In this document: in pieces, positions 7,769 through 63,659 of the stretch | How the letters are laid out: each line of letters starts with the position of its first letter | Position numbering within the stretch: the first letter of the stretch is position 1 | Virus record (IMG/VR): IMGVR_UViG_3300017917_003143 | Location: 128,095-192,094 of that record | Reading direction: 5' to 3' (one strand) | From: a virus | Length of the DNA stretch: 64,000 nt | Notes under the pieces: model-generated | Told to the model about the DNA's origin: nothing | The model's input: the letters and a program-made list of their open reading frames with translations, nothing else | The model's database searches: none | Position numbers and translations under genes: made by a program

Positions 7769-8597
7769 AACGTTCTCCTATTTCTTGTGATATACAAACA
7801 CGGTTCCATTGGCTACCGCGGTTAAATTCTTGATATTGTTCTCCCCCGAGCCCAAACAAAATACATTTGGTAGGTTCAAGGTCCAATTCTTTGACTACTT
7901 GATCATAGATATCTTCGTAGGTTTTCCAGTTCCAATCTATGCTGTGATTCTCCATGAAATCTATGGCACAAGCCATGCTGTGTCCGGGTACTTGATGATT
8001 TTTATTAAAAAAATCAATTCCATCATCGATGTCTTCCCGTTGCCATCTGATGCCTGCACGTAAAAACTGTGCTCCATGGAATGCTTTGCTGATGCTGGAT
8101 GCCACGGTTTCGATACAAGCATGAGATAGATCCACTGAGAGATCTTTGCTGATAGCGATGTAAGCCATGTCTACCAACACAGGAATACCCAACTGTGTAC
8201 ATTTCCTCATGAGTGCATCCATGTCAGGATGCACATCGCCGAGGTCGCTGAATGGGCAACTGATTACCACAGCATCATTTTCGTGCAAAGGTTCATCATC
8301 GATATAACACCAGTCAATGGCATTTTTCAAGCAGACCTGGTGATACATAAATTCCCCACGGAAAAATCTCATCCTGCGAGTGTGGTGTTTGAGATAAAAA
8401 TGATCAAAGGCCTGCACGGATCCGTGGCAAAATGATGCATGGGTGAACTGATCAAAACCGTGGAGTTGGAACGACCCTCCTTTGACCCATGATGTAAAAG
8501 TTTTGGTATAAATTCCCAATAAATCTTCGTGCTGTACCGGCACTGGATTTAATTTTACCGAATCATTTTGTATGGGAAAGGCGCTACGGAGTGGCAT
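7746..8597 (-). CDS. PLP-dependent aminotransferase-like protein (fold type I)
   Basis: The protein has 283 residues. VASSISKAFHGAQF matches the PLP-lysine region of class I/II aminotransferases (S-x-S-K-A-F), and GIPVLVDMAYIA upstream gives the Asp that pairs with the pyridine nitrogen. It is shorter than typical aminotransferases (about 390 residues), lacking much of the usual N-terminal arm and small domain. It is the first gene of a two-gene minus-strand unit with the amidinotransferase and probably supplies or processes its amine substrate. A TATAAATC element lies 3 bases upstream of its ATG. Confidence 0.75.
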   Translation of the reverse strand: MPLRSAFPIQNDSVKLNPVPVQHEDLLGIYTKTFTSWVKGGSFQLHGFDQFTHASFCHGSVQAFDHFYLKHHTRRMRFFRGEFMYHQVCLKNAIDWCYIDDEPLHENDAVVISCPFSDLGDVHPDMDALMRKCTQLGIPVLVDMAYIAISKDLSVDLSHACIETVASSISKAFHGAQFLRAGIRWQREDIDDGIDFFNKNHQVPGHSMACAIDFMENHSIDWNWKTYEDIYDQVVKELDLEPTKCILFGLGGEQYQEFNRGSQWNRVCISQEIGERYARMQSQ

Positions 8598-60816: not shown

Positions 60817-60844
60817 ATAAAAGGGTCTTGACAGGCCCTTTTAT
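60817..60844. terminator. Terminator whose loop is the next promoter's -35
   Basis: ATAAAAGGGTC (60817-60827) pairs with GGCCCTTTTAT (60834-60844), 11 pairs including one G-T, with a T-run in the 3' arm and an A-run opposite, so it could work both ways. Its 6-base loop is exactly TTGACA. Confidence 0.7.
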
Positions 60845-60856
60845 CGCATATATACT
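60828..60856 (+). promoter_or_regulatory. sigma70 promoter of the amber tRNA
   Basis: TTGACA (60828-60833), 17-base spacer, TATACT (60851-60856), 8 bases before the tRNA. Confidence 0.75.
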
Positions 60857-60864
60857 ATTGGTAT

Positions 60865-60939
60865 GCGCTAGTAGCCAAGTGGCAAGGCAGGAGCCTCTAA
60901 AACTCCCTAGCGTGGGTTCGAGCCCCACCTAGCGCACCA
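60865..60939 (+). tRNA. tRNA with CUA anticodon (amber suppressor)
   Basis: GCGCTAG pairs perfectly with CTAGCGC, discriminator A, then encoded CCA (60937-60939). D stem GCC/GGC, T stem GTGGG/CCCAC. The 7-base anticodon loop is CTCTAAA: U33 is 60896 and the anticodon 60897-60899 is CTA, which reads UAG. One C-A mismatch closes the anticodon stem (60894/60902). The D arm (GCCAAGTGGCAAGGCA) closely resembles tRNA-Gln, so charging with Gln is likely but not shown; the Gln-type discriminator G is absent. The gene just downstream has UAG as its third codon. Confidence 0.9.
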
Positions 60940-60959
60940 TTTAACTTAAGGAAAATAAA

Positions 60960-61529
60960 ATGTCATAGATTGAATACGCATGTAGAGATGTAGTCTTCCA
61001 TTTCAACAAAAAACACTTAGAAGACGAGACCGTACCAATGTGGGTCTTAAAAACACATGGTGAAACCTTTTATGTCAATCATGTCGACGCAGACATGCCT
61101 TGGAGCACCAAGGAAACGCCCGACAATTCCCATACCAAAGGCAGTATCAAGTTTAAAGAAGTGTTACTTCAGATCGATGAGCATAACTGTGCCCATTTGT
61201 CTAAGTTAAACATGTTTGATAAGATTCGATTGCGTAATCAAAAGTTAGGCATTACTCGAATCATGTTTAGGCCTAGAACTGATATTCATCAAGCATTACA
61301 AAAAAACGAAGTCAAACATTCACCTTTTAAAACAGTTGAAGGTGCTTGTAGCACATCATTTGTGATTTGCGATATCCTAAAAAAAGAAGAGATGACTTTG
61401 TTGGGATTGAAGTATTCTGGGCAGTTTCGAATCCTAATGCCCAATGAAGGTTACTATCAGTTCTACGATGGTAAAAAGGATTGGATGCACGAGGAATATG
61501 AAGATGAAGATGACGACGAATACAGTTGA
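60960..61529 (+). CDS. Conserved phage protein with in-frame amber at codon 3
   Basis: From the ATG at 60960 (AAGGA 7 bases upstream) the frame reads Met-Ser-UAG-Ile-Glu-Tyr-Ala and then stays open for 186 more codons. The segment between the UAG and the next ATG at 61038 (IEYACRDVVFHFNKKHLEDE) reads as real protein; as I recall, homologues in T4-like cyanophages begin this way. A start at 61038 would drop it. Expression therefore likely needs the amber-reading tRNA 20 bases upstream. Function unknown; later segments include DKIRLRNQKLGITRIMF and an acidic tail. Confidence 0.8.
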
Positions 61530-61554
61530 CAAGTATCGAGAATAAGCATATAAT
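61526..61554 (+). promoter_or_regulatory. sigma70 promoter of tRNA-Ile2
   Basis: TTGACA, 17-base spacer, TATAAT, 9 bases before the tRNA; the -35 overlaps the stop codon of the upstream gene. Confidence 0.75.
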
Positions 61555-61563
61555 AATGCTTAT

Positions 61564-61640
61564 GGGCCTATAGCTCAGTTGGTTAGAGCAGTGGACTCAT
61601 AATCCATTGGTCCCTGGTTCGAGTCCAGGTGGGCCCACCA
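61564..61640 (+). tRNA. tRNA with CAU anticodon, probably tRNA-Ile2
   Basis: GGGCCTA/TGGGCCC acceptor with one G-T pair, D stem GCTC/GAGC, T stem CCTGG/CCAGG, encoded CCA. The loop CTCATAA gives anticodon CAT. The GACTCATAATC arm matches bacterial tRNA-Ile(CAU), whose C34 becomes lysidine to read AUA; AUA codons are frequent in these genes. Elongator Met is the alternative. Confidence 0.85.
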
Positions 61641-63119: not shown

Positions 63120-63659
63120 ATGAAAACAGTAGGACACAAACTTGAAGCATTTGCTATCACTGGCGTTAAGCCTGGTCAACCCGACGACGCATTCTTTCCA
63201 ATCACCGAGGAGTCATTTCCTGGCAAGTGGAAAGTGATCGTTTACTATCCAAAAGATTTCACATTTGTTTGCCCAACAGAAATCGTAGCTTACGACAAGT
63301 TGGCCAAGGACTTTGAAGACCGTGATGCTGTGTTGCTCACAGGCTCAACAGACAATGAGTTCTGCAAAGTAAGCTGGCAGAAAGCTCACGAAGATCTCAA
63401 GAAGATTACACACACCCAGTTTGCAGATGTTGCACGTGGCGAAAAGTCATTGGTTAACCAACTGGGTGTCTTTTTTGAACCAGCAGGTGCCGCACTCCGT
63501 GCCACCTTTATCGTTGACCCTGACAATGTTATCCAACACGTCACTGTCAACAACTTGAACGTTGGCCGTAGCCCAGAAGAAACTTTGCGTATCCTTGATG
63601 CGTTACAGACAGGTGAACTCTGTGCATGTAACCGTGCAGTCGGCGGCGAGACACTGTAA
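63120..63659 (+). CDS. ahpC: 2-Cys peroxiredoxin (AhpC/Prx)
   Basis: The protein has 179 residues. KDFTFVCPTEIVAYDKLAKD holds the peroxidatic Cys, FIVDPDNVIQHVTVNN the conserved core and GELCACNRAVGGETL the resolving Cys region. It reduces peroxides using thiol partners. With the AhpD-like gene just downstream and Dps at 9.9 kb it forms an antioxidant set, unusual in a phage. It has its own host-type promoter. Confidence 0.92.
   Translation: MKTVGHKLEAFAITGVKPGQPDDAFFPITEESFPGKWKVIVYYPKDFTFVCPTEIVAYDKLAKDFEDRDAVLLTGSTDNEFCKVSWQKAHEDLKKITHTQFADVARGEKSLVNQLGVFFEPAGAALRATFIVDPDNVIQHVTVNNLNVGRSPEETLRILDALQTGELCACNRAVGGETL

Follow-up and report, generated by a model that had tools for sequence, protein, structure and literature searches.

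A suppressor tRNA and an early in-frame stop codon in the window

The analysed stretch of DNA, hereafter the window, comprises 64,000 nt of the IMG/VR virus record IMGVR_UViG_3300017917_003143 (343,632 bases; G000), a phage whose DNA polymerase has its closest relatives in the jumbo phages Phosso and Atu_ph07, followed by the 121Q/GAP32 group. The locus under study contains the following features:

60828-60856, plus strand: sigma-70-type promoter motif TTGACA-17-TATACT, 8 nt upstream of the tRNA gene
60865-60939, plus strand: suppressor tRNA with anticodon CUA (ARAGORN, Rfam), with G1:C72, A73 and an encoded CCA
60948-60952, plus strand: Shine-Dalgarno sequence AAGGA of the putatively gated gene
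60960-61529, plus strand: putatively stop-gated gene of the 'FHFNKKHL' family (FHFNK), 189 residues if UAG is read as an amino acid
60966-60968, plus strand: candidate gate, an in-frame UAG as codon 3, kept as TAG in close homologues
60969-61037, plus strand: conserved coding stretch from the UAG to the next ATG, holding the first beta-strand (residues 4-15)

The first-pass annotation had described a tRNA with a CUA anticodon, followed after 20 bases by a ribosome-binding site and an ATG that open a frame with UAG as its third codon and the next ATG at 61038, and each of these features was recovered. The tRNA gene folds into a cloverleaf with the anticodon CTA and an encoded CCA in ARAGORN and reaches 60.3 bits with the Rfam tRNA model (cut-off 29), thus scoring well; ARAGORN's label 'tRNA-Pyl' reflects the CUA anticodon and nothing more. 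The frame begins ATG TCA TAG ATT GAA, and 186 open codons follow the TAG before a TGA at 61527-61529. Since no terminator-like site lies between the tRNA and the gene, both are probably on one transcript. Promoter-like sites are also enriched upstream of the tRNA-CUA genes of relatives, with a mean of 2.6 mismatches compared to 4.5 at random places. A perfect TTGACA-17-TATAAT motif at 61526-61554 overlaps the stop codon of the FHFNK gene and probably drives the tRNA-Met gene behind it (61564-61640), and the window also encodes an AhpC/TSA-type peroxiredoxin (63120-63659).

The FHFNK protein of the window has no match in Pfam or PHROGs and belongs to no recognisable T4-like family, and its initial description as a conserved T4-like phage protein is therefore not supported. 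Sequence and fold searches against the PDB yielded no function and no matching solved fold, and one clear relative, an uncharacterised phage protein of 160 residues, was found in a viral fold library. A remote relationship to the peptidyl-tRNA hydrolase PTH2 was rejected (hhalign probability 0.3%), and the PTH2 model PF01981 has no match anywhere in the record from which the window derives. The N-terminal domain alone, ungated, occurs in Paenibacillus-type phages (L190, about 7965-8225, and L261-L263), where it adjoins genes for tRNA-Cys and, in two cases, also for tRNA-Met or tRNA-Asp; this domain thus accompanies tRNA genes even without a visible suppressor.

Outside this gene, UAG appears to retain its standard meaning. 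Across the whole genome of the window phage, 27 of 386 open reading frames of at least 80 amino acids (7%) end in TAG, in line with the earlier estimate of about 5 in 100 and the claim that the genome is not recoded as a whole. A scan of one distant phage and of four related genomes, all four complete or nearly so, turned up no further coding gene in which an in-frame TAG is conserved; what else it hit were frames over tRNA genes or gene ends. As FHFNK is the one coding gene that keeps an in-frame UAG across the four related genomes, the code is otherwise standard. The phage shares a cognate suppressor tRNA with phages using genetic code 15, and lacks the many genes with in-frame UAG that characterise such recoding. 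Back-up stops behind TAG-ended genes, considered as a sign of genome-wide suppression, were not seen; if anything, the trend was the reverse.

Conservation of the UAG and its tRNA among close relatives

A search of viral contigs returned 233 relatives, 80 of which were kept, giving 81 loci including the window. The close homologues share 61-90% identity, and all 80 that are readable at this position, the window counted in, carry an in-frame TAG at the same place, one to eight codons after the ATG (codon 2-4 counting the ATG, codon 9 in two cases). The codons between ATG and UAG are variable, and the ATG of the readable homologues follows an SD-like motif. By contrast with this early TAG, the genes themselves end in TAA (46) or TGA (34) and never in TAG. 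After removal of redundancy, TAG is retained in 51/51 homologues with a mean nucleotide identity of 0.74 (minimum 0.63), and the codons flanking it drift synonymously. The conservation in both sets (80/80 and 51/51) excludes chance or a sequencing error, the latter having been named at the outset as a possible refutation.

From the UAG to the next methionine (Met 27), the sequence is nearly invariant among close homologues, the conserved N-terminus of FHFNK proteins reaches up to the UAG, and the first beta-strand in an AlphaFold model of the window protein starts at residue 4. The suggestion that this stretch is genuine protein is thereby borne out, and homologues do not start at the equivalent of 61038. 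These comparisons show that the frame codes for protein on both sides of the stop and that the stop is under strong selection.

A tRNA-CUA gene was found for 74 of the 81 loci, and the remaining seven are truncated or short contigs. ARAGORN identified 67, a pattern scan added five with odd D-arms or a truncated 5' end that ARAGORN had missed, and a covariance model added two elsewhere in the record. The gene lies within 40 nt of the gated gene in the window and in eight other relatives, and kilobases away from it in some. In G002, G004 and G005, three of the four complete genomes, the tRNA-CUA gene is separated from the main tRNA array by over 90 kb and lies 0.1-4.7 kb from the UAG-containing gene; in the window's own record, the main array is 8 kb away. 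All 47 distinct tRNA-CUA sequences (the window and 46 others) start with G1C2 and have A73, and their D-arms are very variable. In 40 of the 47, a mismatch at positions 31-39 (C-A in 28, including the window, A-C in eight and C-C in four) reduces the anticodon stem to four pairs. Four-pair anticodon stems, made by opening pairs other than 31-39, have been linked to stop codon reading in E. coli (PMC13092985). The variable loop of the phage tRNA has about five bases; the tRNA-Pyl architecture, with its six-pair anticodon stem and three-base variable loop, is not present. A role as a UAG-reading initiator tRNA was dropped because the acceptor begins with a G1:C72 pair and an SD-ATG start precedes the stop.

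Putatively gated PTH2 genes and cognate stop-anticodon pairs in distant phages

Among distant FHFNK homologues, 44 distinct sequences contain their own UAG and 21 others do not. The cultured Rhizobium phage RHph_I1_18 encodes a UAG-gated FHFNK gene, left unannotated, directly upstream of its tRNA-CUA. Of the 21 that lack a UAG, 15 have an upstream PTH2 gene with a start-proximal UAG, and L269 represents a further case. The same order is found in the cultured Sinorhizobium phage Phosso, whose PTH2 begins ATG AAG TAT TAG GTT ahead of an ungated FHFNK gene and whose tRNA-CUA lies far away at 446,731. The exceptions are L240, where FHFNK is ungated although the genome has a tRNA-CUA, the incomplete fragment L259, and the Paenibacillus-type L261-263, in whose loci no tRNA-CUA was seen. 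L221, with ATG in place of the UAG, was initially taken for an ungated case without tRNA-CUA and was rejected as such, as it has a gated PTH2 upstream as well as tRNA-CUA genes. Judging from gene order, the stop is carried by whatever gene happens to lead the operon.

The gated PTH2 proteins of L325, L253, Phosso, Atu_ph07 and L265 score above the Pfam cut-off (PF01981), and those of L333 and L334, which have no PF01981 match, were placed by alignment with members. A divergent PTH2 family with the motif FREPDLGN comprises 39 distinct UAG-gated loci, one UAA-gated and 19 ungated loci, and a suppressor tRNA is encoded within about 6 kb in 50/59 of them. Seven gated PTH2 loci have no suppressor tRNA in the stretch examined, and 14 of the 19 ungated FREPDLGN-type genes have a tRNA-CUA nearby. 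None of the canonical PTH2 copies checked is gated, including some from the same genomes. Six ungated FREPDLGN-type genes (L381, L394, L397, L399, L402 and L405) have a tRNA-CUA directly downstream, so that PTH2 and the suppressor tRNA stay associated even where no gate is present.

The stop is not always UAG. PTH2 of the cultured Agrobacterium phage Atu_ph07 begins ATG ATT GGC GAA CAC TTT TGA ATT, with UGA as codon 7, and the only suppressor tRNA of this phage has the anticodon UCA, which reads UGA. In the metagenomic phage L414, ATG ACG TAA GTA precedes the PTH2 frame and a tRNA-UUA is encoded nearby; this is the weaker case because the PTH2 frame carries a frameshift. Gate stop and anticodon are thus cognate and covary as UAG/CUA in most phages, UGA/UCA in Atu_ph07 and UAA/UUA in L414. 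The pairing of tRNA and early stop that was to be sought in related phages hence recurs there and in unrelated phages, in distinct lineages and with all three stop codons.

This covariation bears on the possibility that the UAG mainly senses the level or activity of RF1, with the tRNA as a mere helper. Autoregulation of prfB, which encodes RF2, relies on an early in-frame UGA and a +1 frameshift, and resembles the phage arrangement in that an early in-frame stop senses the termination machinery, although prfB has no dedicated tRNA. The extent of readthrough invariably depends on competition with a release factor, which an early stop can sense at little cost. However, the anticodon changes along with the gate stop where the latter is UGA or UAA, which suggests that the tRNA is the partner, and UGA is read by RF2 and not by RF1, making a release factor sensor improbable.

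A regulatory leader of the form ATG-codon-TAG, with the protein starting at a near-cognate codon after the UAG (often AUU) or at Met 61038, would account for the ATT directly after TAG in 48 of the 51 non-redundant homologues, since AUU can initiate. In other gated genes, however, Asn, Glu, Gly, Arg or Thr codons follow the stop (e.g. AAC in RHph_I1_18 and GAA in L265), none of which is a usable start. As such a leader also conflicts with the near-invariance of the residues ahead of Met 27 and explains neither why TAG is kept in 51/51 homologues nor why it covaries with the tRNA, we consider it very improbable.

Likewise, the UAG might insert one residue needed for function, as in selenocysteine or pyrrolysine decoding, with which the phage system shares a dedicated stop codon tRNA acting on few genes under an otherwise standard code. 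Within the FHFNK family, the UAG position is indeed nearly fixed relative to the first beta-strand. In gated PTH2, however, the stop lies about 2 to 40 residues ahead of the fold, and this varying position, combined with constant proximity to the start, is better explained by regulation than by a special residue. Moreover, the homologues L221 and L240 have Met at the UAG position, the phage tRNA lacks tRNA-Pyl features and, unlike in those systems, no special RNA element was seen at the phage gate, so that a required residue is the least credible of these explanations.

Proposed gate, its possible purpose and known systems

Taken together, conservation and cognate pairing favour a start-proximal in-frame stop that gates a translation-maintenance operon and is opened by a dedicated cognate suppressor tRNA, to which we assign a probability of about 0.9. 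They also support the original proposal that the adjacency of the tRNA and the UAG-containing gene constitutes a gate. The pairing is imperfect, and the 19 ungated FREPDLGN-type PTH2 genes, the seven gated PTH2 loci with no suppressor tRNA in the stretch examined, L240 and the Xanthomonas phage XacN1 count against a gate. Without charged tRNA-CUA, ribosomes starting at 60960 would synthesise a dipeptide and terminate at the UAG, and across the gated genes such a peptide would have two to nine residues. With charged tRNA-CUA, the stop would be read as an amino acid, for which Lys or Gln are our guesses, the full protein would be made and the operon translated, so that gate output would report the level of stop codon suppression in the cell. 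We infer that readthrough occurs and is caused by the suppressor tRNA.

In the clade of the window, the gated product is the FHFNK protein itself. The gated products that can be named appear to be translation-maintenance proteins, with PTH2 heading an operon with the FHFNK protein in several lineages. PTH2 recycles peptidyl-tRNA, a function that suggests, tentatively and at somewhat below even odds, homeostasis as the likeliest purpose, whereby synthesis of the protein would require active suppression and scale with it, and the protein would deal with the peptidyl-tRNAs and read-through ribosomes caused by the suppressor tRNA itself. Alpha-type tmRNA signals were detected in 18 of 25 records, nine of them above the Rfam cut-off, and in combination with the role of PTH2 they tentatively favour a homeostatic suppression sensor over a timer.

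A timer would delay the operon to late infection, until the suppressor tRNA has built up, which is the version of the first-pass annotation and an idea that has also been put forward in print for gut phages with a recoded genome. A readthrough-dependent gene must indeed lag behind its tRNA, and where both are kilobases apart, separate promoters are possible. However, the probable shared transcript in the window and the eight relatives with a tRNA within 40 nt would leave little room for a delay, and the nameable gated products are peptidyl-tRNA hydrolases and not lysis or structural genes; overall, we regard a timer as unlikely. For the window gate, a sensor of dosage or activity is no less likely than a timer, because tRNA and gene are probably cotranscribed. 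If the homeostatic sensor holds, the suppressor tRNA would serve a single operon whose gated product (PTH2 or FHFNK) repairs suppression damage, with the stop as sensor in a feedback loop; such a new class of natural control circuit is conceivable, although we would not yet bet on it.

Stop codon recoding, including code 15, has been described for gut phages with suppressor tRNAs, for which a regulatory role was proposed (Borges et al. 2022, as cited in PMC11210395). Measured against that summary, both systems involve a phage suppressor tRNA reading in-frame stops in a standard-code host, whereas here the code is otherwise standard, one operon is affected by a single stop located no more than about 10 codons from the start, all three stop/anticodon versions occur, and the operon encodes a peptidyl-tRNA hydrolase. 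Atu_ph07 has the same arrangement as reported here, its tRNA-UCA being cognate to the UGA of PTH2; the original description lists 32 canonical tRNAs plus the suppressor tRNA-UCA, treats the latter and the hydrolases separately, and states only that several genes could be targets (PMC6102473). XacN1, another jumbo phage, likewise has PTH2 alongside tRNA-CUA genes, and its authors looked for read-through targets of tRNA-CUA and found none (PMC5852040); in contrast to the phages above, its PTH2 (ORF295) is ungated. Phage suppressor tRNAs that alter translation are thus already known, while a dedicated one-operon gate with cognate stop/anticodon switching appears undescribed, as no published description was found in the literature searched.

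Standard-code phages often carry suppressor tRNAs of unassigned target, and the gate would supply a concrete one, also in the cultured phages Phosso, Atu_ph07 and RHph_I1_18. It would furthermore represent, in nature, what synthetic biologists construct as amber switches. In addition, it exposes a systematic mis-annotation, as genes are start-truncated or missed because of the early in-frame stop: in public records, those of RHph_I1_18 (L082, 3977-4224), Phosso (L083, 2887-3378) and Atu_ph07 (L084, 2932-3381) are missed or called from an internal ATG, which is the annotated start of Phosso PTH2. Directly behind its tRNA-CUA, Phosso also has about 1.3 kb without an annotated gene (L191, 3307-4604; Phosso 446806-448103), which may harbour a structured RNA.

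Among these phages, permuted (alpha-type) tmRNA genes occur frequently. The record of the window has a below-cut-off match only (G000:C1:203320-203634, 40.6 bits), and several tmRNA genes lie directly behind or before a UAG-gated gene, one of which (L012, 6546-6944) overlaps the end of that gene.
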